DNA of 64,000 nucleotides from Ilumatobacter fluminis (lineage in GTDB: Bacteria; Actinomycetota; Acidimicrobiia; Acidimicrobiales; Ilumatobacteraceae), in assembly GCF_004364865.1 (NCBI RefSeq), contig NZ_SOAU01000001.1, positions 4,310,001 to 4,374,000 of the forward strand, in the 5' to 3' direction. The first letter of the stretch is position 1. Every line of letters begins with the position of its first letter. This document shows positions 20,161-33,202 of the stretch, piece by piece. The position numbers and the translations under genes were made by a program. The notes under the pieces are model-generated. The model worked only from the letters and a program-made list of their open reading frames with translations, made no database searches and had not been told where the DNA came from.

Positions 20161-20163
20161 ATC

Positions 20164-20250
20164 TGGTGGGCGAGGGGGGACTTGAACCCCCACGATCTTG
20201 CGATCACTGGCACCTGAAGCCAGCGCGTCTGCCAATTCCGCCACTCGCCC
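20164..20250 (-). tRNA. tRNA-Leu(CAG)
   Basis: The minus strand folds as a class II tRNA. The acceptor stem GGGCGAG (5') pairs with CTCGCCC (3'), followed by discriminator A and an encoded CCA. The D-arm contains AATTGGCAGACGCG, the anticodon stem CTGGC/GCCAG encloses the loop TTCAGGT (anticodon CAG), a long variable arm (GATCGCAAGATC) follows, and the T-arm carries GGTTCAAGTC. The long variable arm together with the CAG anticodon identifies leucine. Confidence 0.97.
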
Positions 20251-20297
20251 GAGTGACGCCTGAACGCTAGCGGGCGCGCGAGAAATCGCCACCACCC

Positions 20298-20475
20298 GTT
20301 CTCGGCGGCTCCCGTTGCGGAATGTGCCACAGGAGCAACCGAGAAGCGGACGCCGGGTTCTCGGCGGAGTCAGTCCACGATGTTGGACCAGGTTCACCGA
20401 GAACTCGCTCGGGAGGGCCGGTGCCGGGATCTCGGCGGACTCGGTTCATCATGGTGAACTCGGTCCACCGAGAAC
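20298..20475. repeat. 48-bp hairpin repeat array A (3 units)
   Basis: Three units at 20298-20346, 20357-20404 and 20428-20475. Each starts with G(T/A)TCTCGGCGG and ends with (C)ACCGAGAA(C/G), the ends being inverted repeats of each other. The interiors are more divergent here than in arrays B-D. The array lies immediately upstream of the tRNA-Leu gene on its promoter side. Confidence 0.85.
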
Positions 20476-20483
20476 GGTGGCCG

Positions 20484-21335
20484 TCAGTCGGCGGGGCCGC
20501 CGACGGTCTGGATCTCGACGACGGGGTAGTCGAGCGTCGACGTCAGCACGATCGGTGGCTGGACACCGCTGACGCCGCGGGAACTCGTCCACGTCACCGT
20601 CCAGGTCGAGGTGATGGTGACCGGGTACGGCCTGCCGTCATTGAGATCGCGATACGTGTAGCCGCAGACCGGGCTCGGGTCGGCCGAGTCGAGAGCGCTG
20701 TCGGGGATCGGGTCGCCCGCACCGGTGCACTCGACGACGTCGCCGTTGCCCATGTCGAACACGGTCTGGCTGAGCTCGGCACGAGCCGTCACCCACGAGC
20801 CCGGCGCCGCGCTGGCCGTCACCTCATAGGGGCCGGGGTCGTCGACCGCGAGCCACATGCCGAGCTGCACGACGCCCTGGTCGGTCGGGCTCAACGCCGG
20901 TGCCGGCGGATCGATCTCTCGCGCTGCTCGGTCGCGCAGGATCGACGCGACCAGTGCCGGGTCCGGATCGGTGATCAGCAGCCAGATCGTGTCGCCGCTC
21001 ACCACCTCGTCGCCTCGGCGACAGGTCTTCTGGGCGCGGACCCAGCTGGCGCCGGTCTCGGAATCGAATCGGAACTGCCGAGCGTCGACGAAGACATATG
21101 TGTAGCCACCGGACTCGTACCGCCCCCGCTGCGGCACCGTCAGCTCCGTTGTCGTACACACCACCGGCACCTCCGGCGGATCGTCGGAGTCCGACGGCTC
21201 CGAGCCCTCGGCCGTCGCCTCGTCGGTGACGGCGAGGCCACCGCCACCACCAGCGCTGCCCCCGGCCTCGGCGGGCGACGAGGTTCCGAACAAGAACAGC
21301 AGAACCAACCCGACTGCAGCTACAGGTCGCCGCAC
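20484..21335 (-). CDS. Secreted hypothetical protein
   Basis: About 283 residues from a GTG at 21335 that has AGGAG just upstream and overlaps the end of the lipoprotein gene 21320-22093 by 16 bases. The N-terminus RRPVAAVGLVLLFLFGTSSPAEA is a cleavable signal peptide. It is followed by a Gly/Ser/Asp-rich low-complexity stretch and a mature beta-rich region with VCTTTEL, TCRRGDEV, VECTGAG and VCGYTYRD, four cysteines that may pair. No domain is recognised. Overlap with the upstream lipoprotein indicates cotranscription; both are probably cell-envelope proteins. Confidence 0.65.
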   Translation of the reverse strand: MRRPVAAVGLVLLFLFGTSSPAEAGGSAGGGGGLAVTDEATAEGSEPSDSDDPPEVPVVCTTTELTVPQRGRYESGGYTYVFVDARQFRFDSETGASWVRAQKTCRRGDEVVSGDTIWLLITDPDPALVASILRDRAAREIDPPAPALSPTDQGVVQLGMWLAVDDPGPYEVTASAAPGSWVTARAELSQTVFDMGNGDVVECTGAGDPIPDSALDSADPSPVCGYTYRDLNDGRPYPVTITSTWTVTWTSSRGVSGVQPPIVLTSTLDYPVVEIQTVGGPAD

Positions 21336-22093
21336 TGCTCCTGGCCCTCCCAGAACCCGAATCGCTGGAGACCGTTGACGACCCACGCGCCGTCGACAAG
21401 AGCCAGGCTGTACGACAAGTCGGCGGCATTCACGGAATCGTCGACGACAAGATCCTCGCCATCGTCCCCGGCATCGACCTCGACGCGGATGTCACCGTCG
21501 ATCGCGCAGGCGTCGAAGGCAGCGATGTCGTCGACAACGATCAGCGACGGCGGGTAGATGTCGGTGTGAGTGATCGGGACCGAAACAATCGCCTCACCGT
21601 TCGCGATCAGTTCGTCGAGGAACGTCTCGACCCGTTCTGCGAAGGGGTTTCCGACCGTCGCACGCACGCCCTCTCGCAACGCCGTGTCCGACGGATCGGC
21701 GGATGCCGCTCGCATCGCGTCGGAGTACGCGTAGAACGCGTCGACGACCGCCTGCTTGTCTTCGTCGTCGGGGAAGGTGACTCGGGGTGGGACGCCCTCG
21801 GGGAGGGTGGTCGTCGTGGGTTCGGGGCTCGTCGTCTCGGGCGGGGCGGTGGACGGGACCGTCGTGGGCTCCGCCGTGGTCGGGGCAGCGACCGTCGTGG
21901 GGGCGCTCGTGGTCTCGGGCGCGGTCGTCGGCGGAGCGCTCGTCGTGGGTGCGGCCGTCGTGGGTGCGGCCGTCGTGGTGGCCTGCACGGTCGTGGTCGA
22001 GGCGGCGTCGTCGTCGCCGGAGCAGGCGGCGGCGATCAGGAGTGACGCGGCGACGAGGGTTCCCGCCGCGAGCCGTGGTCGGTGGCTCACCAT
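21320..22093 (-). CDS. Lipoprotein with Thr/Pro-rich linker and NTF2-like domain
   Basis: A 257-residue protein with a lipoprotein signal peptide (LVAASLLIAAAC lipobox, acidic SGDDD after the Cys), a spacer of about 70 residues built from TTAAPTT/TSAPPTT-type repeats, and a globular C-terminal domain (KQAVVDAFYAYSDAMRAASADP ... SLALVDGAWVVNGLQRFGFWEG) that resembles NTF2-like folds of actinobacterial surface lipoproteins. It is probably anchored outside the membrane with its domain held away from it. Its function is unknown. Confidence 0.7.
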   Translation of the reverse strand: MVSHRPRLAAGTLVAASLLIAAACSGDDDAASTTTVQATTTAAPTTAAPTTSAPPTTAPETTSAPTTVAAPTTAEPTTVPSTAPPETTSPEPTTTTLPEGVPPRVTFPDDEDKQAVVDAFYAYSDAMRAASADPSDTALREGVRATVGNPFAERVETFLDELIANGEAIVSVPITHTDIYPPSLIVVDDIAAFDACAIDGDIRVEVDAGDDGEDLVVDDSVNAADLSYSLALVDGAWVVNGLQRFGFWEGQEQCGDL

Positions 22094-22165
22094 GCGAGCA
22101 AACTACCCCGCCCCACGGACCCGCGGGGATGGGGACAACTCCCCGCCAGTGAGCCCGACCCCACC

Positions 22166-22577
22166 GATCTCGGCGGCTCCGGTCCACGATCCCGGACTCA
22201 GCTCACCGAGAACCCCAGGCGCCAGACCCCGAGCCCGGTTCTCGGCGGCACACGTCCGGAAACTCGCACCACAGTCACCGAGAACCCCAGGCGCCGGACC
22301 AGTCCCCGTTCTCGGCGGCACACGTCCGAAAACCCGCACCACAGCCACCGAGATCCCCAGGCGCCGGGCCAGTCCCCGTTCTCGGCGGCACACGTCCGGA
22401 AACTCGCACCACAGTCACCGAGAACCCCAGGCGCCGGACCAGTCCCCGTTCTCGGCGGCTCTCGTCCGGGAAACCGCACCACAGCCGCCGAGAACGTGGC
22501 GAAGATCCCCACCACCACCCATCACCCCGGTTCTCGGCGGCTCCGGTCCGAGATCCCGGACCACAGCCACCGAGAAG
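22166..22577. repeat. 48-bp hairpin repeat array B (6 units)
   Basis: Six units, each exactly 48 bp, start at 22166, 22238, 22308, 22378, 22448 and 22530; the four central ones have an exact 70-bp period. Consensus ends are GTTCTCGGCGG and CCACCGAGAAC; the interior of most units keeps CGTCCG and CGCACCACAG. Between units lie 22-34 bp spacers that are themselves similar (CCCAGGCGCCGG-type). The array fills most of the 590-base gap between the divergent lipoprotein and fhaA genes; outside it I see no gene in that gap. Confidence 0.92.
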
Positions 22578-22686
22578 CCGTGAGCGGTCCCGAATGCACC
22601 GCGACTCGGGCTGAGGAACGCCCTCAGCGGCCACCGGCGGAACTCGACCCATCGGCCGAATGAGGCCAGTACGCTGGCGCATTCCT

Positions 22687-23346
22687 ATGGGCATGCAAGG
22701 ACTGGAGCACCGCCTCGAACGTATGGTGGATGGTGTGTTCCGTCGTTCGCGCAACTCCATCCGGCCGATCGAGCTCGGCCGACGCCTGATCCGGGAGATG
22801 GACGACCACCGTTCGGTCGACGTCAAGGGTCAGCGAATCGTCCCCAACGATTTCGTCGTGCTGCTCTCCGCCGACGACCACAACGGCTTCGCCGACATCG
22901 AGGATGCGCTGCGGACCGAACTGGTCGAGGCCTGCCGTGAGTACGCCCGCGAGGAGGGCTACCACTTCATGGGCCCGGTCAGCGTCGACCTCCGGATCGA
23001 CAACTCGTTGAAGCCCGGCCGGTTCGGCATCGCCTCGCAGCTCAAGCAGTCCGATCCCGGTCATCGGCCCGGATCGATCGTCATGCCGTCGGGCGACCGC
23101 ATCAGCCTCGTCGACGACACCCACACGATCGGCCGCCTCCCCGACTGCACCGTCGTCGTGTCCGACAGCAACGTCAGCCGCCACCACAGCCGCATCACCC
23201 GGTCGGGCAGCGGCTTCGTGATCGCCGACCTCAACTCGACGAACGGCACGTTCGTGAACGGCGAGCGTCTCCTCGCCGACCACCGTCTGACCGAGGGCGA
23301 CATCATCACCATCGGCTCCGTCAACCTTCGTTTCGAAGCGTCCTGA
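22687..23346 (+). CDS. fhaA: FhaA-like protein (DUF3662 plus FHA domain)
   Basis: A 219-residue protein starting MGMQGLEHRLERMVDGVFRR. Residues 1-110 match the FhaA N-terminal domain (PIELGRRLIREMDDHRSVD, VPNDFVVLLSADD); residues about 130-219 form an FHA phosphothreonine-binding domain with IGRLPDC, SRHHSRI and LNSTNGTFVNGE. In mycobacteria FhaA binds phosphorylated MviN and restrains peptidoglycan synthesis. It is much shorter than mycobacterial FhaA because the long central linker is missing. First gene of the signalling operon, 22 bases before the next FHA gene. Confidence 0.92.
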   Translation: MGMQGLEHRLERMVDGVFRRSRNSIRPIELGRRLIREMDDHRSVDVKGQRIVPNDFVVLLSADDHNGFADIEDALRTELVEACREYAREEGYHFMGPVSVDLRIDNSLKPGRFGIASQLKQSDPGHRPGSIVMPSGDRISLVDDTHTIGRLPDCTVVVSDSNVSRHHSRITRSGSGFVIADLNSTNGTFVNGERLLADHRLTEGDIITIGSVNLRFEAS

Positions 23347-23368
23347 ACGGCACCACACCCACCCACGC

Positions 23369-23914
23369 ATGACCGACCAGGTACTCGACATCCTCAAGCT
23401 GGTGCTGCTGGCACTGCTGTACCTGTTCTTCGCGCGTGTGCTCTGGGCGGTGTGGAGCGAGGTGCGACAGCCCGACGCCCGCAGCATCGACCCGCAGCCC
23501 GCAGCGCAGCCACAGGCCGCGCCCCAACCGGCTGCAGCCCCACTCGATGGCACCCCGACCGGCGGCATCAACTGGCGTTCGAACCAGAAGCCGGTCCGTC
23601 CGGCCCGTGGCCAGGGAGGCCGACCCGCACGACTGGTCGTGCTCGAACCAAAGGAACGCCGCGGCACCACGTACGCGATCGGCGAGTCGTCGATCAAGAT
23701 CGGCCGTGAGACGACGAACACGATCGTCATCGCCGACGACGCGTACGTCTCAGGACACCACGCGACGATCGCGCTGATCGGCGGCAACGTGGTCGTCGAC
23801 GACATCGTCAGCAAGAACGGCACCTACGTCAACGGCACCCGGGTCAGCCAACAGCGTGCGCTCCACGTGGGCGACCGCGTCCAGATCGGCGCCACGATCC
23901 TGGAGGCGCAGTGA
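23369..23914 (+). CDS. fhaB: Membrane-anchored FHA-domain protein (FhaB/FipA-like)
   Basis: A 181-residue protein with an N-terminal membrane helix (ILKLVLLALLYLFFARVLWAVW), a Pro/Ala/Gln linker, and a C-terminal FHA domain with IGRETTN, SGHHATI and VSKNGTYVNGTRVS. The layout matches mycobacterial FipA (FhaB), which is phosphorylated by PknA/PknB and acts at the septum. Its stop overlaps the start of the phosphatase gene, as in other actinobacteria. Confidence 0.93.
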   Translation: MTDQVLDILKLVLLALLYLFFARVLWAVWSEVRQPDARSIDPQPAAQPQAAPQPAAAPLDGTPTGGINWRSNQKPVRPARGQGGRPARLVVLEPKERRGTTYAIGESSIKIGRETTNTIVIADDAYVSGHHATIALIGGNVVVDDIVSKNGTYVNGTRVSQQRALHVGDRVQIGATILEAQ

Positions 23915-25410
23915 TGGCCGAGCTGCGCTGGGGAGCCGCCACCCACGAGGGACAGCTGCGCTCCCAGAACGAAGATCACCACTACGTCGGTGAGAACCTG
24001 TTCGTCGTCGCCGACGGCATGGGCGGCCATCTGGCGGGCGAGGTCGCCAGCGAGATGGCGGTCGACCGCCTCCGTGACAACCTGCCCGGCGACGCCGACA
24101 ACACGCTCGATCAGTTGGTCGCCGCGATCGACGAGGCGAACGACGAGATCTACGACGGGTCGATGCACAACCCCGATCAGGCGGGCATGGGCACGACCGT
24201 CACGGCCGTGGCGGTCGTCGCCGATCCGCACGACGGGGAGGCGTTCGGCATCGCGAACGTCGGCGACTCGCGCGGCTACGTCATGCGACACGCCCGCCTG
24301 CGCCAGCTGACGATCGACCACAGCTTCGTGCAGGAACTCGTCGCCGAGGGCGCGATCTCGCGCGAGGAGGCCCGCTACCACCCGCGCCGCAACATCGTCA
24401 CCCGGGCGCTCGGCATCGAGCCGGGCGTGCGCGTCGACTCGTGGACGATGCCGATCTTCCAGGGCGACCGAATCCTGTTGTGCTCCGACGGGCTCGTCGA
24501 CGAGATCACCGACGATCACATCACCGAGGTCCTGCTCGAGCATCCCGATCCGAACGAGGCCGCGCAGGCGCTGGTCGATGCCGCCAACGAGGCTGGCGGA
24601 CGCGACAACATCACCGTCGTCATCATCGATGTCGTCGAAGGTGACGACCCGCCCGACCCGACCGAGGAGTTCGACGTCGTCCCGCTGTGGGCCGACGACG
24701 ACGGCGACGACACCGGCGAGGTCCAGATCGTCGCCGACCCGCTCCCCGACGACGAGCACGACGACGCGAACGACGACGACGGTGATGGCGACGAGCACGA
24801 CGACACGACCGGGGTGATCGCCGCCACGGCCGCCGTCGCAGCCGTCACCGCCGACGAGTCGACCGATGCTGCGACCGGCACCGACGTCGATGCTGCCGGC
24901 GACACCGTCGAGGTCGACGAGCCGCAGCTCCCGCCCGCCGACGACGGCGCACCGGCCGTCGTGCCGACCCCGCCACCGGTCGCCACCCCGAAACGCAAGC
25001 GCAGCCGCACCCAGGGCTTCTTCCGATTCCTGCTGATCCTCGGCGTCGCCGCCGTGCTCGTGCTCGGCTTCGTGATCATGGCGGCCTGGGCGCGCAGCGG
25101 GTACTTCGTGGCGTTCGACGAGCAGGACCGAGTCGTCGTCTACCAGGGTCGCGAAGACGGCTTCCTCTGGTTCGAGCCGACCCCCGAGGCGTACGGGCAG
25201 TACACCCGCGACGAACTCGACGACGAGTCGATCGCACTCGTCGAGGACAACGTCCACTTCGAATCTCGCGACAACGCGAAGGCGTTCGTGGCCCAGCGTC
25301 TCAGCCCCCGCTCCGAACTCGACGACTCGAGCGAAGGGGGCGAACCGGCCACGTCATCGGCCGACAGCTCCGGCACTTCGTCCGCCACGTCGAGTCCGGG
25401 CGACGGCTAG
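23911..25410 (+). CDS. pstP: PP2C-family Ser/Thr phosphatase (PstP-like) with long acidic linker
   Basis: A 499-residue phosphatase that removes phosphate from PknB-type kinases and their targets. The PP2C catalytic domain (about 1-240) has RSQNEDHHY, VVADGMGGHLAGEVAS, GTTVTAVAVV, VGDSRGYVMRHARL, LCSDGLVDEI and GGRDNITVVII, including the metal-binding aspartates. Then comes an unusually long, acidic linker (about 245-350, rich in Asp/Glu and Ala/Val), a basic stretch (KRKRSRT), one membrane helix (FFRFLLILGVAAVLVLGFVIMAAW) and an extracytoplasmic domain of about 125 residues. It overlaps fhaB and is followed by rodA after 9 bases. Confidence 0.93.
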   Translation: MMAELRWGAATHEGQLRSQNEDHHYVGENLFVVADGMGGHLAGEVASEMAVDRLRDNLPGDADNTLDQLVAAIDEANDEIYDGSMHNPDQAGMGTTVTAVAVVADPHDGEAFGIANVGDSRGYVMRHARLRQLTIDHSFVQELVAEGAISREEARYHPRRNIVTRALGIEPGVRVDSWTMPIFQGDRILLCSDGLVDEITDDHITEVLLEHPDPNEAAQALVDAANEAGGRDNITVVIIDVVEGDDPPDPTEEFDVVPLWADDDGDDTGEVQIVADPLPDDEHDDANDDDGDGDEHDDTTGVIAATAAVAAVTADESTDAATGTDVDAAGDTVEVDEPQLPPADDGAPAVVPTPPPVATPKRKRSRTQGFFRFLLILGVAAVLVLGFVIMAAWARSGYFVAFDEQDRVVVYQGREDGFLWFEPTPEAYGQYTRDELDDESIALVEDNVHFESRDNAKAFVAQRLSPRSELDDSSEGGEPATSSADSSGTSSATSSPGDG

Positions 25411-25419
25411 CGAGGCGAC

Positions 25420-26790
25420 ATGAGCGTTCGCACGGTCGTCCAGTACCGCCGGCAGACCGAGCTCACCCTGATCGTGATGGCTGCGGCCATCGTCGGCGTC
25501 GCCTACACCCTGGCGTCGCTCGGCGCGAACTCGGTGATCCCGGCCCGGATGGGGCCCTTCCTCGGGCTCGTCCTGATCCTCATCGCCGTCGCCCACATCG
25601 CCGTCCGCAAGCTGGCCCGTGGCGCCGACGGCACCCTGCTGCCGCTCGCGTTCCTCCTCCACGGTCTCGGGTTCGTCATGATCACCCGACTCGACGAAGA
25701 CCTGGCCGGCTTCCAGGCGTTGTGGTCGCTCATCGCCGTCGGCGCGTTCTGCGCCACCCTCCTGTTCGTCCAGCGGGCGATCGACCTCGCCCGCTACAAG
25801 TGGACCCTGTTCTTCATCGGCGCCGGCATGTTGCTGCTCCCGATGCTGCCCGGGCTGGGATACGCGGCGGGCGGCGCCCGCATCTGGGTCAGCGTCGGGC
25901 CGATCAACTTCCAGCCGGGCGAGTTCGCCAAGCTCGCGTTGGCGATCTTCTTCGCCGCCTACCTCGCCGACCGGCGGGAGCTGATCGCCGCCTCCACGTG
26001 GAAGGTCGGCCCACTCCGGCTCCCCGAACCGCAGCACATCCTGCCGCTCGTCGTGGCGTGGGGCTTCGCCGTGCTGGTGATGGTCGGCCAGCGCGATCTT
26101 GGCTCGTCACTGCTGTTCTTCACCCTGTTCGTGGTGATGCTGTGGGTCGCGACCGAACGCAACATCTACCTGATCCTCGGCATCGTGCTGTTCAGCGGTG
26201 CTGCGTACGTGGCGTGGCGGCTGTTCGACCATGTGCAGACCCGTGTCTCGATCTGGCTCGACCCGTGGGAGGACGAGTACGGCAGCGGCTTCCAGATCGT
26301 GCAGGCCCTCTACGGCATCGGCGACGGCGGCATCACCGGCACCGGCCTCGGCCGCGGCTCACCCGACAAGGTGCCGCTCGCCCAGAACGACTTCATCTTC
26401 GCGGCGATCACCGAGGAGATGGGGCTCATCGGTGCCACCTCGATCCTGATGGCGTACCTGCTCTTGATCGGTGCGGGGTTTCGGATCGCGATCCGCACCG
26501 ACCGCACGTTCGAGAAGCTGCTGGCGACCGGCCTCACCACGATCGTCGGCATCCAGGCGTTCATCATCATCGGTGGCGTCATCAAGCTGGTGCCGCTCAC
26601 CGGCATCACCCTGCCGTTCGTGTCGTACGGCGGTTCGTCGTTGCTCGCCAACTACATCCTGCTGGCGCTGCTGATCCGGTTGTCCGACGCCGGAGCGATC
26701 CGCCGCGGCGAACGCACCGACGACCCGACGCCCCGCGAACGGTGGGCCGCGTGGAAACTGCGCCGAGCAGAGCGGAAACTGGCGTCATGA
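25420..26790 (+). CDS. rodA: SEDS peptidoglycan glycosyltransferase (RodA/FtsW)
   Basis: A 456-residue polytopic membrane protein of the SEDS family, which polymerises lipid II into glycan strands with a partner class B PBP. About 12 helices are predicted. Family landmarks are visible: GGARIWVSVGPINFQPGEFAKLALAIF, QRDLGSSLLFF, LDPWEDEYGSGFQIVQALYGIGDGGITGTGLGRGSP, NDFIFAAITEEMGLIG and LPFVSYGGSSLLANY. A GAGGCGAC ribosome-binding site precedes the ATG. Position between pstP and pbpA matches the Mycobacterium order, which favours RodA over FtsW. Confidence 0.95.
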   Translation: MSVRTVVQYRRQTELTLIVMAAAIVGVAYTLASLGANSVIPARMGPFLGLVLILIAVAHIAVRKLARGADGTLLPLAFLLHGLGFVMITRLDEDLAGFQALWSLIAVGAFCATLLFVQRAIDLARYKWTLFFIGAGMLLLPMLPGLGYAAGGARIWVSVGPINFQPGEFAKLALAIFFAAYLADRRELIAASTWKVGPLRLPEPQHILPLVVAWGFAVLVMVGQRDLGSSLLFFTLFVVMLWVATERNIYLILGIVLFSGAAYVAWRLFDHVQTRVSIWLDPWEDEYGSGFQIVQALYGIGDGGITGTGLGRGSPDKVPLAQNDFIFAAITEEMGLIGATSILMAYLLLIGAGFRIAIRTDRTFEKLLATGLTTIVGIQAFIIIGGVIKLVPLTGITLPFVSYGGSSLLANYILLALLIRLSDAGAIRRGERTDDPTPRERWAAWKLRRAERKLAS

Positions 26791-26839
26791 CCGCGGCCCT
26801 CCTCCCGCCGCCCGGCACCCCCGTGCGCCGGCCCCGTCC

Positions 26840-27028
26840 CCACCCGGCGGACGCCAAGGCGATTAAATCCACCACGAGTCCACCGGTGGACCCCAAGGCG
26901 ATTAAATCCACCAGGAGTCCGGCAAGGCCCTGTCCCCACCCGGCGGACGCCAAGGCGATTAAATCCACCTCGAGTCCACCGGTGGACCCCAAGGCGATTA
27001 AATCCACCAGGAGTCCGGCGGAGTCGCA
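26840..27028. repeat. Composite 96-bp tandem duplication with four CCAAGGCGATTAAATCCACC copies
   Basis: A 20-bp core, CCAAGGCGATTAAATCCACC, occurs at 26854, 26893, 26950 and 26989. The spacing 39-57-39 shows two copies of a 96-bp composite unit. Each unit also holds GTCCACCGGTGGAC, a perfect 14-bp palindrome, between its two cores. The GATTAAATC segment is conspicuously AT-rich for this genome. The block fills most of the 274-base gap between rodA and pbpA, an otherwise tight operon. Confidence 0.85.
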
Positions 27029-27064
27029 GCCGAACGCCACCACGCGTCCGGGGGTGGTGGGGCG

Positions 27065-28591
27065 ATGAACCGGAAGATCCGACAGCTGGCCGTCGTCTTG
27101 ATGGGGTTGTACGTGGCGTTGTTCGCCGCGCTCAACTACTGGGCCGTCGACCGCACCGACGAACTGGCGTCCGAGCCGGGCAACACCCGCGCCGTCATCA
27201 AGGAGTTCGACACGCCACGCGGGCAGATCGTCACCGCCGACGGCGTGGTCGTGGCCCGCTCCACGCCGATCGACGACCCCGAGAGCGACGTCGCCTACCA
27301 GCGCGAATACCCGACCGGCGATCTGTTCGCCCAGATCGTCGGCTACTACACGTTCGGTCTCGGCTCGACCCAACTCGAACGTTCGAAGTCCGACGTGCTC
27401 ACCGGCGACACGTTCACCCAGCAGGTGCGCGCTCTCGGCGACCTCCTGTCGACCGAGAACGACCAGTCCGGCGAGATCCGCCTCACGCTCCGCGAAGACA
27501 TGCAGCAGGTCGCCAAATTCCTGCTCGGTCAGCGGCAGGGGTCGATCGTGTTGATGGACGTCGAGACCGGCGCACTGATCTCGATGTGGTCGTGGCCGAG
27601 CTTCGACCCGAACCGGGTGGCCGACCCCGACTACGACGCGGCGTTCGAGTACGTCACCGAGCTGCAGGAGGACGAACGCGACCCGCTCCTGGCGAACGCC
27701 TACATGCAGCGGTACATGCCGGGCTCGACGTTCAAGATCCTCACCACCGGCGCCGGCCTCGACTCGGGCACGATCACGCCCGAGACGACGTGGCCGTACG
27801 AGACCGAGTGGGTACCGCCCCAGACGGACGACCCGATCATGAACTACGGCGGCACGAGCTGCGGCGGCGACCTGGCCGAAGTCTTCCGTCGGTCGTGCAA
27901 CATCCCGTTCGCCAAGATCGCGGTCGACATGGGCCCCGACCAGTACCCCGAGTACATCGACCGGTGGGGTGTCGAAGAGGACGTACCGATCGACCTGCCC
28001 CGCCCGGCGGCCAGCACCCTCGGCAACACCGACGACCTCGACGAGCGGCTGCCGATCCTCGCCATCAGCGGGTTCGGTCAGGCCGAGGTGCAGATGGTGC
28101 CGTTGCACATGGCGATGGCGGCCGGCGCCGTGGCGAACGACGGCGAGATGATGAGCCCGTTCGTCGTCGACGCCGAACTCGATCACGACGGCCGGGTGAT
28201 CAGCCGCACCCAGCCCGACGTGTGGAAGCGGCCGATCAGCCGCCAGTCGGCCGAGATCATCCAGGACCTGATGGTGCAGGTCGCCGAGTCGGGCACGGCC
28301 AGCTGCTGCATCGCCCTCGAGGGCGGGATCCCGGTCGCCGCCAAGACCGGCACGGCCCAGCTCAACGGCCCGGGCGAGCCCGAACGGTCGCACGCCTGGA
28401 TCACCGCCTATGCGCCGGCCGACGATCCCAAGTACGTGGTCGCCGTCATCATCCAGGGCACGAACGCCGAGATCTCGGCCAGCACCGGCGGCCGCCTCGC
28501 CGGGCCCGTCGCCAAGGCGATGCTCGACGAGATGTTCCGCATCGACCCGCCGACCCCGGCCGGGGCACCTGCGACGGAGCCACAACCGTGA
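27065..28591 (+). CDS. pbpA: Class B penicillin-binding protein (PbpA-like transpeptidase)
   Basis: A 508-residue peptidoglycan D,D-transpeptidase with an N-terminal membrane anchor (QLAVVLMGLYVALFAALNYW) and a large extracytoplasmic part. Penicillin-binding motifs are intact: STFK with catalytic Ser221, SCN at 277-279 and KTG at 427-429. A short dimerisation/pedestal region precedes the transpeptidase domain, as in mycobacterial PbpA. It partners RodA, encoded just upstream. Confidence 0.95.
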   Translation: MNRKIRQLAVVLMGLYVALFAALNYWAVDRTDELASEPGNTRAVIKEFDTPRGQIVTADGVVVARSTPIDDPESDVAYQREYPTGDLFAQIVGYYTFGLGSTQLERSKSDVLTGDTFTQQVRALGDLLSTENDQSGEIRLTLREDMQQVAKFLLGQRQGSIVLMDVETGALISMWSWPSFDPNRVADPDYDAAFEYVTELQEDERDPLLANAYMQRYMPGSTFKILTTGAGLDSGTITPETTWPYETEWVPPQTDDPIMNYGGTSCGGDLAEVFRRSCNIPFAKIAVDMGPDQYPEYIDRWGVEEDVPIDLPRPAASTLGNTDDLDERLPILAISGFGQAEVQMVPLHMAMAAGAVANDGEMMSPFVVDAELDHDGRVISRTQPDVWKRPISRQSAEIIQDLMVQVAESGTASCCIALEGGIPVAAKTGTAQLNGPGEPERSHAWITAYAPADDPKYVVAVIIQGTNAEISASTGGRLAGPVAKAMLDEMFRIDPPTPAGAPATEPQP

Positions 28592-28593
28592 TC

Positions 28594-28752
28594 ATGGACC
28601 GGCCGATCGGCGCCGATGAACCAGCTGAGAAGCGGTCCGTCGGGTACGGTCCGCGGCACCCCCATGACGGTGAGTCGGCGAAACCCGTCGGTATCCTCGT
28701 GGATCGGCCCGTTCCGCCCCTGTGGCGCCGCGGGCATGAGGCAATCAGATGA
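28594..28752 (+). CDS. Possible small ORF between pbpA and pknB
   Basis: A 52-codon frame starts 2 bases after the pbpA stop and ends in an ATGA overlap with pknB. It encodes a Pro/Arg/Gly-rich hydrophilic peptide (begins MDRPIGADEPAEKRSVGYG, ends PVPPLWRRGHEAIR) with no recognisable domain. The tight junctions at both ends look like operon coupling. However, composition is low in hydrophobic residues and no strong ribosome-binding site is seen, so it may only be a spacer. Confidence 0.35.
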   Translation: MDRPIGADEPAEKRSVGYGPRHPHDGESAKPVGILVDRPVPPLWRRGHEAIR

Positions 28753-30917
28753 GTGAGAGCGGCAAAGCGACGGTCATCAGCGACCGATACGAGATCCACA
28801 AGCGGGTCGGGCGCGGCGGCATGGCCGACGTGTTCCTCGCCAAGGACCTCCTGCTCGACCGCCAGGTCGCCATCAAGATCCTGTTCCCCGAGTTCGCGGT
28901 CGACCCGAACTTCGTGGAACGGTTCCGTCGCGAGGCGCAGGCCGCCGCCAACCTCAGCCACCCCAACATCGTCAACGTGTACGACTGGGGCAAGTACGAG
29001 GGCACCTACTTCATCGCGATGGAGTACGTGCAGGGCCGCAGCCTCGCCGAGATCCTCAAGACGAATCAGCAGCTGACGCCGAAGCAGGCGGCCGAGATCG
29101 CCAGCGAGGTCGCCGCCGCCCTCGGGTTCGCCCACGAGGCCGGGCTCGCCCACCGCGACATCAAGCCGGCCAACATCATGGTCGGCGCCAACGGCCAGGT
29201 GAAGGTCGCCGACTTCGGTATCGCCCGCGCCATGAACGCCGGCACCGAATCGAACCTGACCCAGGCCGGGTCGGTCATGGGTACGGCCAGCTACTTCAGC
29301 CCCGAACAGGCCCAGGGCGCCCAGCCCGACCCGCGCAGCGACCTGTACTCGCTCGGCATCGTGATGTACGAGATGGTGGCCGGTCGGCCGCCGTTCACCG
29401 GCGAGAACCCGGTCGCGATCGCCTACAAGCAGGTGCACGACAAGCCGACGCCGCTCAACCAGCTGGTCGAGGGCATGCCGCGCCCGTTCGAGGCGATCGT
29501 CGCCAAGCTGCTCGCGAAGGATCCCAAGCTGCGCTACCCGAGCGCACACGCGCTGCGCGACGACCTGCGCCGGTTCCGCAACGGCGAGCAGGTGCAGGCA
29601 CTCGTCGCCGCCGCCGCCCGACCGGGCACGCCGGCTGCGGGCATGGCTCGTCCCGGCACCGCTGCCGCCGCCGGGGCTGCCGCTGCAGCTGCTGCGGCTG
29701 CCACCACGGTCGGGACGACGCCGCCGGGAGTCGACCCGGCCACCCGCACGGCCCACGCCCATCCCCAGATCGCCGGCGCCCCGACCAACGCCCTGCCGGC
29801 GCAGCCGAACGCCGACATCACCACCTTGCCGCCCGGCGCGTCGCCCGAGGCCCGCTACTACCAGGACTCCAACAGCCGCACCGGCTGGTACGCCCTCGCT
29901 GCGTTCATCGCGCTAGTGGCCCTCGTCGCCGGTGGCGTGCTCCTGTACCAGGGGCTCACGCAGGAGAGCGACGACGTCTCCGCCGCCCGCACCCTCGACG
30001 ACTACACGGGTCAGCCGCTCGACAGCGTCACCCAGGCACTCACCTCGCTCGGGCTCGAGTACCGCGTGTTCGCCGAGGAGAACCCGACCGTGCCGGAGGA
30101 GTTCGTGCACCGGACGGTGCCCGGTCCCGGCACGATCGTGACCGAAGGTCAGGTCGTCGAGGTGTACTACAACCCGACGGCGGCCCTCGTCACCGTGCCG
30201 AACGTCGCCGGGCGAACGCTCGAGGAGGCAGCCGCGCTCCTCGGCAACGAGGGATTCGAGATCGCGGAGACATCCGAGTTGAGCGACGTCGCCGAAGGGC
30301 TCGTCATCCGCACCGAGCCGCCCGCCGACAGCCGCGTCCCGCAGGACACCGTCATCACCGTCGTCGTGTCGGGTGGCCCCGACCAGGTGGCGATCCCGCC
30401 GATCATCATCGGCGACCCCGAGGCCGAGGCCCGCGCCCTGCTCGAATCCGACCAGTACGGACTGCTCGTCACCGTCACCACGCAGGTCGACGAGGTCATC
30501 CCGGCCGGCACCGTGATCAGCACGAACCCGCCACCGAACACCTTGGTCGACCGCGGTTCGACGGTCGAACTGATCGTCAGTTCGGGCCCAGGTCAGGTGC
30601 GGGTGCCGCCGCTGGTCGGCTTGTCGGAAGGTCAGGCACGCAACCTGCTCGCCGACGAGGGTCTCGGCATCGAACCGCAGTACCGCGAGCTCGAACCGGG
30701 CGATCCGAACGACGGCACGGTGCTCGAGCAGAGCATCCCGCCGAACCAGGAAGTCGACAAGGGCACCGTCGTCGGTGTCGTGATCGGTCAGGCACGCGTC
30801 GCCGAGACGACGACCACGACCTCCACCACGACCACCACGACGACGACCACCACGGTCCCCCCGACGACCACCACGACGGCGCCCGCCACCACCACGTCGT
30901 CGACCGCCGCGCCCTGA
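28749..30917 (+). CDS. pknB: Receptor Ser/Thr protein kinase PknB with four PASTA domains
   Basis: A 722-residue transmembrane kinase. The kinase domain (about 13-275) has the Gly loop GRGGMADVF, catalytic Lys43 in VAIKIL, HRDIKPANI (Asp137), DFG (155-157) and the activation segment with GTASYFSPEQ. A juxtamembrane Ala/Pro-rich linker, one membrane helix (about 380-400) and four extracytoplasmic PASTA repeats follow (PNVAGRTLEEA, PPLVGLSEGQA and others), which sense muropeptides or lipid II in relatives. A Thr-only tail ends the protein. No pknA gene is present between pbpA and pknB, unlike Mycobacterium. Confidence 0.96.
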   Translation: MSESGKATVISDRYEIHKRVGRGGMADVFLAKDLLLDRQVAIKILFPEFAVDPNFVERFRREAQAAANLSHPNIVNVYDWGKYEGTYFIAMEYVQGRSLAEILKTNQQLTPKQAAEIASEVAAALGFAHEAGLAHRDIKPANIMVGANGQVKVADFGIARAMNAGTESNLTQAGSVMGTASYFSPEQAQGAQPDPRSDLYSLGIVMYEMVAGRPPFTGENPVAIAYKQVHDKPTPLNQLVEGMPRPFEAIVAKLLAKDPKLRYPSAHALRDDLRRFRNGEQVQALVAAAARPGTPAAGMARPGTAAAAGAAAAAAAAATTVGTTPPGVDPATRTAHAHPQIAGAPTNALPAQPNADITTLPPGASPEARYYQDSNSRTGWYALAAFIALVALVAGGVLLYQGLTQESDDVSAARTLDDYTGQPLDSVTQALTSLGLEYRVFAEENPTVPEEFVHRTVPGPGTIVTEGQVVEVYYNPTAALVTVPNVAGRTLEEAAALLGNEGFEIAETSELSDVAEGLVIRTEPPADSRVPQDTVITVVVSGGPDQVAIPPIIIGDPEAEARALLESDQYGLLVTVTTQVDEVIPAGTVISTNPPPNTLVDRGSTVELIVSSGPGQVRVPPLVGLSEGQARNLLADEGLGIEPQYRELEPGDPNDGTVLEQSIPPNQEVDKGTVVGVVIGQARVAETTTTTSTTTTTTTTTTVPPTTTTTAPATTTSSTAAP

Positions 30918-31312
30918 TGCCCGACGCGCTGTACCGATTCACGTCGGGCGAGCGGCTGCCGGTCGAGGTCCTCGTCTTCGACGTCGACCCGGCGCATCTC
31001 GACGAGTTCCTCCGCGTCGACCACGAGGTCTGGACGCTCGGCGAGGCGTTGCTGCCGGGATTCGAGCGAATCCCCTTCCTGTCGAAGGAAGTGTGGGTCG
31101 ACGACGCCCACCCCGGGCGGGTGCACCTGGTGTTCGTGTGGGAGTCGATGGCGGCGTGGGAGCGTGTCGGCGACACCGAGATCCAGCGCCGTCTGCAAGC
31201 CGAGTTCGACGAGCGCTTCACCCACCCGGTCACGCTGGTCGCCGCACTCCACGAGGACTCGAACTTCGGCATCCACCGAGTCAGCCGATTCGAACGCCCC
31301 GACCAGCCCTGA
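30917..31312 (+). CDS. Small dimeric alpha/beta-barrel-type protein (TIGR03792-like)
   Basis: A 131-residue soluble protein whose ATG overlaps the pknB stop (TGATG). The pattern VEVLVFDVDPAHLDEFLRVDHEVWTLGEALLPGFERIPFLSKEVWVDDAHPGRVHLVFVWESMAAWERV fits small ferredoxin-like barrel proteins, and I recall a similar arrangement in the TIGR03792 family of unknown function. The coupling to pknB suggests cotranscription with the growth-control operon. Its role is unknown. Confidence 0.75.
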   Translation: MPDALYRFTSGERLPVEVLVFDVDPAHLDEFLRVDHEVWTLGEALLPGFERIPFLSKEVWVDDAHPGRVHLVFVWESMAAWERVGDTEIQRRLQAEFDERFTHPVTLVAALHEDSNFGIHRVSRFERPDQP

Positions 31313-31382
31313 CCGCCCCGGGGCGGTCTCGGTGGTGCCCGCTGCGCTGCCCCCGAGCAGCCGGCCAACCCAGGCCTCCGGC

Positions 31383-32058
31383 GATCTCGGCGCCCCCAGT
31401 TGCGTTCGCCGCAACCAACGCCACCGAGAACCCAACCGCACCCGGTCCCCATCGATCTCGGTGACCTCAGTCCGACATCCCGCACCACAGCCACCGAGGA
31501 CCCAGCGGCACCCAGGCCTCATCGATCTCGGTGATCTCAGGTGCGACCCGCGCAACACACGCCGCCGAGAACCGGCAACACCTACCCTCCACCATCTCGG
31601 CGGCCCCAGTCCGACAACCCGCACCACAGCCACCGAGAACCCAACCGCACCCGGCCCCCATCGATCTCGGCGGCCCCAGTCCGACAACCCGCACCACAGC
31701 CACCGAGAACCCAACCGCACCCGGCCCCCATCGATCTCGGCGGCCCCAGTCCGACAACCCGCACCACAGCCACCGAGAACCCAACCGCACCCGGCCCCCA
31801 TCGATCTCGGCGGCCCCAGTCCGACAACCCGCACCACAGCCACCGAGAACCCAACCGCACCCGGCCCCCATCGATCTCGGTGAACCCAGGTGCGACCCGC
31901 GCAACACACGCCGCCGAGATCCCACAACCCTCCCCAGCGCGATCTCGGCGGACCCGGTCCGACATTCCGCACCACAGCCGCCGAGAACCGGCGACACCCA
32001 GGCCACCACGATCTCGGTGACCTCAGGTGCGGCCCGGTGAACCAACGCCGCCGAAAGC
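31383..32058. repeat. 48/49-bp hairpin repeat array C (10 units)
   Basis: Ten units start at 31383, 31454, 31524, 31593, 31663, 31733, 31803, 31873, 31941 and 32010, a 68-71 bp period throughout. Three consecutive periods (31663-31872) are identical 70-mers. Two interior subtypes alternate: a 48-bp type with CCAGTCCGACA and CGCACCACAG, and a 49-bp type with AGGTGCGACCCGCGCAACACACG. The array fills the gap between the convergent gene 30917-31312 and trpG; no gene is supported there. Confidence 0.93.
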
Positions 32059-32072
32059 GGGGCCTGGCGAGG

Positions 32073-32651
32073 TCAGTTGGCGCGGGCGAGGAAGGTACGG
32101 AGGAGGTCGTGGCCGCAGCCGGTGAGGATGCTCTCGGGGTGGAACTGCACACCCTCGACGTCGTGCTCACGGTGGCGGACACCCATCACGATCCCGTCGA
32201 CCGAGCGGGCGGTCACCTCGAGCTCGTCGGGCACGGTGTCGGGGTCGAGCACGAGGGAGTGGTACCGCGTCGCGGTGAGCGGCGTCGGCAGACCGGCGAA
32301 CACCCCGGCCCCCTCGTGCTCGATCGGCGACGTCTTGCCGTGCATCAGCTCGGGCGCTCGCACGACGTCGGCGCCGTAGACGTGGCCGATCGCCTGATGG
32401 CCGAGGCACACCCCGAGCACCGGCGTGCCGGCGTCGGCGAAGGCTCCGATCGCGTCGCAGATGATGCCGGACGTCTCGGGCCGACCCGGCCCGGGTGAGA
32501 TCAAGACGGCGTCGGGTTCGATGGCCAGTGCTTCGTCGACCGTGATCTGATCGTTGCGATGCACGATCGGGTCGGCCCCGAGCTCACCCAGGTACTGGAC
32601 GAGGTTGTAGACGAACGAGTCGTACGAGTCGATGACGAGCACCCGGGTCAC
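32073..32651 (-). CDS. trpG: Glutamine amidotransferase subunit of anthranilate/aminodeoxychorismate synthase
   Basis: A 192-residue class I glutamine amidotransferase from a GTG at 32651. It hydrolyses glutamine and hands ammonia to the TrpE/PabB partner, which is not encoded nearby. Motifs: VLVIDSYDSFVYNLVQYLG, SPGPGRPE, the nucleophile Cys82 in GVCLGHQAIG, and His171/Glu173 in VQFHPES. Placement beside pknB and crgA is the same as mycobacterial Rv0013. It could serve folate (pabA) or tryptophan synthesis. The open frame upstream to 32831 runs into the repeats and is not used. Confidence 0.93.
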   Translation of the reverse strand: MTRVLVIDSYDSFVYNLVQYLGELGADPIVHRNDQITVDEALAIEPDAVLISPGPGRPETSGIICDAIGAFADAGTPVLGVCLGHQAIGHVYGADVVRAPELMHGKTSPIEHEGAGVFAGLPTPLTATRYHSLVLDPDTVPDELEVTARSVDGIVMGVRHREHDVEGVQFHPESILTGCGHDLLRTFLARAN

Positions 32652-32735
32652 GACGGCGACGCTACCCGCGAGCCCCACCCCCTCCCCCAACGGTTCCACG
32701 GCGCCCGACTGCGACCCGAACCCGGACGCCATCCA

Positions 32736-33202
32736 CATCTCGGCGGCGCACGTCCGAGAAACCGCACCACAGCCACCGAGAAGCCACTGGACGCCGCTGC
32801 CACCCAGACCTCGATGACAACAGTCCAGCATCCGGAACTCAGATCACCGAGAACCCGACCACGCCGAACACCACCGCCTTCAGGCGCGAACACCGCACCC
32901 GACGCTGCGACAAGGGCACCGGGGGACCCGACCACCCGCAATCTCGGCGGCACACGTCCGACATTCCGCACCACAACCACCGAGCACCAACCCGGCACCC
33001 ACACCGCCCGCAATCCCGGCGGCACACGTCCGACATTCCGCACCACAACCACCGAGCACCAACCCGACACCCACACCACCCGCGATCTCGGCGGCACACG
33101 TCCGACATTCCGCACCACAACCACCGAGAACCAACCCGACACCCGCGCCACCCCACTGTCCGGCGTGCCTGGTCCCCCACCGGAACCCAGATCGCCGAGA
33201 AC
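32736..33202. repeat. 48-bp hairpin repeat array D (5-6 units)
   Basis: Clear units start at 32736, 32940, 33012 and 33084; 32807-32854 is a degenerate unit, and 33154-33202 keeps only the right end (ATCGCCGAGAAC). Several carry CGAGCAC instead of CGAGAAC at the right end, so this array is decaying. The last three clear units are spaced 72 bp. It occupies the divergent trpG/crgA gap, which otherwise contains only the crgA promoter region. Confidence 0.88.

Follow-up and report, generated by a model that had tools for sequence, protein, structure and literature searches.

In the closed genome of Ilumatobacter fluminis (G000), arrays of intergenic hairpin elements are co-oriented with the replication fork whatever the direction of the flanking genes (27/27 clusters; p=1.5×10−8). 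In related species, arrays lie at syntenic sites in the same orientation despite turnover of inner and spacer sequences. Intergenic palindromes are commonly regarded as unoriented or as transcription-linked debris. On this chromosome, one palindrome family is fully fork-co-oriented while another is not, and we found no described repeat family that combines tandem intergenic palindromes with full fork orientation irrespective of gene direction. The system allows a direct test between by-products of lagging-strand single-stranded DNA and polar landmarks used by the cell.

Within the window, i.e. the whole 64,000-nucleotide stretch analysed, four intergenic arrays hold 24 full copies (48–49 bp) and a decayed one, and the repeat family described in the first-pass annotation is real. 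All copies have the same orientation (minus strand), which the first-pass annotation did not mention. Array A (20298..20475) has three copies (20298-20346, 20357-20404 and 20428-20475) between a tRNA-Leu (cag) gene (20164..20250, minus strand) and a minus-strand ORF (20484-21308). Array B (22166..22577; 22166-22213, 22238-22285, 22308-22355, 22378-22425, 22448-22495 and 22530-22577) has six copies in the divergent gap between a minus-strand ORF (21320-22093) and the FhaA_N/FHA gene. The ten copies of array C (31383..32058; 31383-31431, 31454-31501, 31524-31572, 31593-31640, 31663-31710, 31733-31780, 31803-31850, 31873-31921, 31941-31988 and 32010-32058) lie in a convergent gap between a plus-strand ORF (30917-31312) and a minus-strand GATase (TrpG-like) gene. 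Array D (32736..33131; 32736-32783, 32807-32854, 32940-32987, 33012-33059 and 33084-33131) has five copies in the divergent gap between this GATase gene and crgA (plus strand), and at its end the decayed copy (33158..33202, minus strand; 13.3 bits) retains the right arm. With up to two mismatches, the left end had 161 matches vs 61.3 expected (maximum of 100 shuffles, 79); the right end had 86 vs 31.6 (shuffle maximum, 46). The window copies scored 45–73 bits on the better strand with a covariance model (R1) built from these same copies. A search of the window against Rfam 15 at gathering scores matched only the tRNA and gave no known RNA family for the element.

The unit consists of the palindrome, whose inner stem is variable, and a G-rich tail of ~23 bp, two features missing from the earlier description; an example of the tail is the 22 bp spacer at 31641..31662 (minus strand G-rich and A-poor). 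Read in fork orientation, the spacers of G000 contain G at 0.551 and A at 0.043. They recur within arrays, unlike the unique spacers of CRISPR. The reported period of about 70 bp was confirmed, spacings in element clusters being mostly 68–72 bp, with 59, 82 and 133 bp also present. Off-mode spacings followed ~10-bp steps with a 10.1-bp period (equally high in 14/2000 null draws), which suggests double-stranded DNA. The earlier idea of protein-binding sites is compatible with this stepped spacing and with the conserved arms.

The motif is not confined to one window or one genome. The G000 count is at least 112 copies, grouped into 27 clusters; three matches of 21.9–24.7 bits that were 27, 28 and 93 bases long (L036 8992, L058 3237 and L051 14169) were excluded from the copies, and the copies at 251954 and 602127 (both plus strand), removed from the 110-copy set by a rank cut, are included only in this minimum count. 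Cluster orientation flips at dnaA and again within the 2.30–2.39 Mb interval, which also holds the AT-skew flip; a dif search of the stretches 2.248–2.261 and 2.286–2.406 Mb gave one poor match. Within each cluster all copies are direct (one copy was re-read by its neighbours). Successive 0.8-Mb bands from dnaA hold 12, 6 and 9 clusters, without a rise towards the terminus. On opposite arms, two clusters, each fork-oriented, match one another over 249 bp at 91%, in their elements as well as their spacers.

Among ten Ilumatobacter genomes examined, elements were absent or nearly so in seven. The three element-rich genomes group together: the crgA-side match to G003 and G004 was 92–93%, vs 70–85% for the other seven. 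In six of these seven (both flanks matched) the gap before crgA was short (34–241 bp) and free of R1 matches. G004 also carries arrays that are absent from the collinear DNA of G000. Array orientation was retained at 20/20 syntenic loci in two relatives. At orthologous sites the arms were ~87% alike; similarity of the inner parts, the spacers and the 60-bp flanks was close to that between unrelated arrays. Tail composition was preserved (G 0.55 and A 0.04 in G000; G 0.52 and A 0.06 in relatives, where one site from a wrong neighbouring cluster and one ambiguous site are included), and tail sequence was not. Array placement has been retained from one species to another through a turnover of inner and spacer sequences. 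Polarity in the relatives is not absolute. Of their non-syntenic array sites, 11/14 agreed with the expected orientation and three were reversed (one poorly mapped, one partly ambiguous); single copies ran against it in 11/97 cases in G004 and 8/55 in G003. Local skew agreed with array orientation at 21/22 (AT) and 18/22 (keto) loci in G000, 16/21 and 16/21 in G004, 8/13 and 10/13 in G003, and 6/12 for each in G032. It is noisy in the draft relatives, where we judged polarity by synteny instead; the copies of G032, which sit on short contigs, are so close to perfect palindromes that they have no callable orientation.

The first-pass annotation had predicted that RNA from the minus strand folds better, and this was so for 6/6 window copies folded as RNA. 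Across 102 distinct genome copies, the more stable strand was the model strand in 92 with RNA parameters and in 89 with DNA parameters. When a fork leaves dnaA, the model strand serves as its template for lagging-strand synthesis. Covariation within the stems was weak, with only a few base pairs above shuffles, and the arms are kept mainly as sequence. Covariation as proof of RNA structure was rejected.

The gaps of 28 arrays comprised nine tandem head-on, nine convergent, five divergent and five tandem co-directional cases. The arrays occur in all four gap types with an orientation that tracks replication, which supports the earlier view that promoters or terminators do not explain them; on these gap types we rejected transcription as the driver of orientation. 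RNA processing, also proposed, is an unlikely driver, because in 9/28 arrays the genes on both sides are read from the opposite strand. The element might still act in transcripts, as a Rho-type terminator of head-on transcripts, a 3'-UTR stabiliser or a processed RNA hairpin. The better folding of the model strand as RNA would fit, as would the C-rich, G-poor head-on RNA (C 0.55 and G 0.19 in spacers, the complement reading) and the head-on gene on the model 3' side in 18/28 arrays vs 58/141 background gaps (p=0.036). We nevertheless consider such a role improbable, since orientation stays the same in each of the four gene contexts, the ratio of tandem head-on to co-directional gaps (9:5) differs little from background (38:43; p=0.26), no T-run follows the hairpins, the convergent enrichment (9/28 vs 20/141; p=0.029) fits plain promoter avoidance, and 10-bp phasing is a feature of DNA. 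The orientation of an intrinsic terminator tracks the upstream gene and is accompanied by a U-tract; the element is independent of the upstream gene and has no U-tract. We also rejected, as barely credible, an apparent polarity of randomly oriented palindromes in which strand-biased mutation has enriched the leading strand in G and T. C to T changes on that strand could yield the common T-G pair, but fork-oriented background intergenic DNA is nearly skewless (G 0.350, C 0.333, T 0.162 and A 0.155; n=34949) in contrast to the spacers, transversions too separate the two readings of the element, and the chromosome's resident REP family shows no polarity. That REP family belongs to a RAYT-like gene, the only Y1_Tnp match found in the genome (E=2.4×10−7); no IS200-type TnpA was found there. 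Multi-copy intergenic palindromes would suit this RAYT as owner of the 48-bp element, and a Y1_Tnp gene is present in all three element-rich genomes of the genus. Yet the gene is flanked by its own, different repeats (75 copies, 39 with and 36 against the fork), and R1 gave no match adjoining it and five of at most 14.2 bits within 11 kb around. Distribution does not fit either: G001, G002, G005, G006 and G008 have Y1_Tnp with zero or one element, and G032, at 63% completeness, gave 22 R1 matches on the two strands together but no Y1_Tnp match. We consider this ownership highly improbable and rejected it.

We tentatively favour a REP-like element that is renewed through the single-stranded lagging-strand template and recognised there by a putative protein, an account we hold to be somewhat less than an even chance. 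A non-coding palindrome with its G-rich tail would have spread in one Ilumatobacter clade and formed short direct arrays in intergenic gaps. Copies would be made and renewed via single-stranded DNA at the fork, where the hairpin may form on the exposed template and its arms may be recognised by a single-strand nuclease, a transposase or a host protein. Such recognition would make orientation follow replication, as in IS200/IS605 elements, whose orientation recapitulates replication direction as reported in PMC5371812. The arrays may then grow, shrink and homogenise through tandem duplication or slippage. The 27/27 polarity with its flips at dnaA and the AT-skew change, its independence from gene direction, the greater stability of the lagging-strand template (DNA parameters), dispersal of the 249 bp between opposite arms, clade-specific gain and the arm conservation against near-baseline surroundings argue for this account, together with the IS200/IS605 precedent. 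Against it stand the spacing steps, the reversed arrays and copies in relatives, a sole Y1_Tnp that belongs with an unpolarised REP family, the lack of a 5' guide tetranucleotide, and no target-site duplication, the expected mark of the MITE-like units suggested earlier, visible in four aligned filled/empty site pairs, whose flanks had diverged and whose alignments yielded no defined insertion boundary. A mobilising enzyme was likewise not found: among 40 non-window flanking proteins (from 48 references listed, leaving out seven short proteins and one duplicate row), none had a mobile-element domain or resembled a REPtron-like linked enzyme, and six had no Pfam family at 1e-5. Nearly as likely as renewal through single strands is a host-selected array of polar binding sites, in which a putative DNA-binding protein would occupy helically phased duplex sites read directionally by the fork or a translocating motor. 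Conserved arms amid diverged inner, spacer and flank sequences, orientation retained at all syntenic loci, the 10.1-bp period and the retained tail composition point to it; absence or near-absence from seven of the ten genomes, patchy gain and loss, the lack of a rise towards the terminus and the three reversed non-syntenic arrays count against it. We think it rather unlikely that phased palindrome and G-rich-tail arrays, fixed in site and orientation despite content turnover, constitute a new kind of chromosome-polarity system read directionally by a putative protein travelling with or meeting the fork.

BIMEs and REPINs are pairs in inverted orientation, unlike the direct copies in G000 clusters; in G003 and G004 a few copies are reversed. 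The element shares with the REP/BIME/REPIN group (TnpA_REP, RAYT) short, intergenic, multi-copy palindromes, single or clustered, and falls within the REP size range of 21–65 nt given in PMC6006769. The earlier label 'REP/BIME-like' holds for this appearance; it fails on two defining features, as GT[AG]G is missing 5' of the first copy (1/27 had GTGG) and the repeats that flank the resident RAYT are of a different family. The 71-bp period with G-rich tail and the replication-set orientation also differ from REP. Like IS200/IS605 elements and their non-autonomous ends, as described in PMC5371812, the element has hairpins and follows replication, but it has no linked transposase gene or recognised LE/RE pair and forms tandem arrays with conserved placement and internal turnover.

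KOPS and AIMS are short, frequent polar octamers that spread through genes and rise towards the terminus, and in principle the orientation of KOPS and of Ter is read directionally by the fork or a translocating motor. The element is replichore-polarised like the octamers described in PMC5993296, but consists of 48-bp palindromes at 27 intergenic places without such a rise. The betaproteobacterial repeat BRE, as presented in PMC3110155, is repeated, usually intergenic and differs in tandem number between genomes; it is ~90 bp long, and the orientations given there for Bordetella do not follow the fork.

A phage-borne origin was among the readings rejected: in a viral collection, the arm pattern occurred in 13 records, of which 12 had a single place each and the remaining one had one palindrome matched on both strands. 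Among the 80 of 118 stretches listed in a wider contig scan, only the NZZV and JAGQSS records had more than one distinct place. On 11 pattern-selected loci, R1 scored best at L208 (36.6 bits, Acidimicrobiaceae), followed by L148 (33.3 bits, Nocardioidaceae), both single places.

The element is a palindrome of 48-49 bp. In the window it occurs as 24 full copies and one decayed copy, distributed over four intergenic arrays (A to D), and the match counts of its left and right ends each exceeded those of all 100 shuffles. Rfam gave no match for the element in the window; only the neighbouring tRNA-Leu was matched. The first-pass annotation had proposed that minus-strand RNA folds better than plus-strand RNA, and this held for 6/6 window copies folded. 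The genome-wide count with a covariance model that it suggested as a check showed the family to extend beyond the window. A model (R1) built from 22 window copies and run on the Ilumatobacter fluminis genome (4,775,416 bp in one contig) found 110 copies in 27 clusters on rescanning of the fetched stretches, a lower bound, as scoring covered the best 150 of the 13,093 candidates from the first look. Two further copies fell outside this set by rank, and three short or overlong matches (21.9-24.7 bits) were dropped. An arms-only pattern matched at 94 places in the genome; it gave no extra cluster among the places listed (up to 2.96 Mb) and seven stray single matches that are unlike the element.

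The orientation of the clusters followed replication. With dnaA at 4,680,185, the model strand, on which R1 reads the element, was plus in all clusters from 4,708,566 across the zero coordinate to 2,299,503 and minus in all clusters from 2,394,687 to 4,635,585; copy 247900, which scored slightly better reversed, was assigned plus by its near-identity to its array neighbours. Because a plus cluster lies 7 kb to the right of the exact antipode of dnaA (~2,292,500 by arithmetic), we placed the terminus by the sign change of the AT skew, which falls between the stretches that begin at 2,366,000 and 2,386,000. No dif site was found in the fetched stretches (2.248-2.261 and 2.286-2.406 Mb). All 27 clusters were co-oriented with the fork (p 1.5e-8). 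The control was another repeat family of this chromosome, the one flanking the only Y1_Tnp gene found, a resident REP-type transposase gene. Of its 75 places, counted at <=3 mismatches, 39 were oriented with and 36 against the fork.

Genes were called by a home-made dicodon caller (86% coding), array edge overlaps of <=60 bp being permitted. All 28 arrays sit between called genes, with two edge overlaps (~10 bp at cluster CL11, ~3 bp at array D). The gaps were tandem head-on (9), convergent (9), divergent (5) and tandem co-directional (5), and this spread over all gap types indicates that orientation is not set by transcription. Convergent gaps were enriched (9/28 arrays versus 20/141 background gaps, p 0.029), and the model-3' neighbour was head-on at 18/28 arrays versus 58/141 in the background (p 0.036). 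Promoter avoidance may explain both.

R1 matched at E <= 1e-5 in 11 of 100 genomes, I. fluminis included. Among the 100, counts above six (over both strands) were reached only in I. fluminis, the congeners G003 and G004, and G032, which belongs to a different genus of the family. The prevailing orientation with respect to the genes was the same at 20/20 G003/G004 loci syntenic with an I. fluminis array (nucleotide flanks mostly 75-92% alike). Sites without such an array, mapped by joined-fragment searches, agreed in 11/14 cases and disagreed in 3/14 (one-sided p 0.029); the agreeing ones include contig C74, mapped via one gene (71-77% alike), and C39, with one copy each way and scored by the better copy, and the G004 contig ends C140 and C128 were merged into one site. 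The disagreeing sites were C138 at 14749 (two copies, one of them almost tied), C172 at 1262 (collinear with 59-60 kb of I. fluminis) and C88 of G003 (mapping only 73-74% alike). By copies, 86/97 in G004 and 47/55 in G003 had the expected orientation. The element was absent from the gap before crgA, the gene beside array D, in six congeners, where this gap is short. At G003 L095 2374-2494, compared with window 20163-22590, the array A and array B sites seem to be joined into one, and the two minus-strand ORFs between these arrays have no match at that locus.

Over 257 copies from three genomes, left arm positions 3-8 (TCTCGG) were 96-99% conserved, and their right-arm counterpart CCGAGA 94-99%. 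The inner stems form two classes (48-mers mostly GTNCG/CGNAC, 49-mers GTTGCG/CGCAAC-like), with weak covariation within either. Spacers in I. fluminis contained G 0.55, T 0.22, C 0.19 and A 0.04; the fork-oriented intergenic background contained G 0.35, C 0.33, T 0.16 and A 0.16. The G-rich stretch of the spacers is also present after the last copy of arrays but absent before the first, and is therefore the 3' tail of each unit. Centre-to-centre spacing peaked at 71-72 bp. With near-identical spacers of one array counted once, the off-mode spacings (37/170, range 45-116 bp) had a 10.1-bp period, a value reached by 14/2000 uniform draws; the larger spacings may be sums and were not treated as independent.

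Orthologous arrays were compared in 15 pairs, of which 11 served for the spacers and 14 for the flanks. Their identity was barely above the non-orthologous level for the inner part (0.680 versus 0.666), the spacers (0.642 versus 0.621) and the 60-bp flanks (0.644 and 0.640 versus 0.606 and 0.620). Arm identity at orthologous pairs was 0.866. Arms that persist amid turnover of all else are probably recognised by something. Clusters CL9 (1072481) and CL25 (4464995), on opposite replication arms and each in fork orientation, have 249 bp of elements and spacers in common (91% alike), a visible dispersal event.

For IS200/IS605, the sections consulted of two papers describe an orientation set by replication and the use of lagging-strand single-stranded DNA (PMC5371812, PMC6006769). 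The element resembles this precedent in that its orientation follows replication, and of its two strands the better-folding one is that which the lagging-strand template exposes. We propose that the element would be renewed through single-stranded DNA, its arms being recognised. A host-selected polar site array is nearly as likely: the spacing is phased, the sites are kept and no enzyme was found for the element. The nearest repeat with an examined orientation, BRE, is unlike the element in being reported, in the part of the source consulted, as not fork-co-oriented (PMC3110155). We found no description of fork-oriented intergenic palindromes in open-licence papers.

Other palindromic repeats were also seen. 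The Y1_Tnp gene is RAYT-like (G000:C1:4551885-4553030; L010 4886-6031) and is flanked by a REP family of its own, GGTCAGGTGYCAGAGGTGACG. About 10 of the 75 places of that family are inverted doublets, 147-150 bp apart, which look REPIN- or MITE-like. G032 (L075, L097-L107) carries dispersed near-perfect 49-bp palindromes with window-family arms, GATCTCGGTGAC...GTCACCGAGATC; these occupy 13 places on the 12 contigs fetched and represent a related form that is not arrayed. G072 belongs to a different family within the order. Its related palindromes are 50 bp long (L108 8378-8488, L109 7909-7958), and their arms, GTTCTGGGTGGC/GCCACCCAGAAC, differ from those of the window family by a paired change; the two L108 copies are 61 bp apart.
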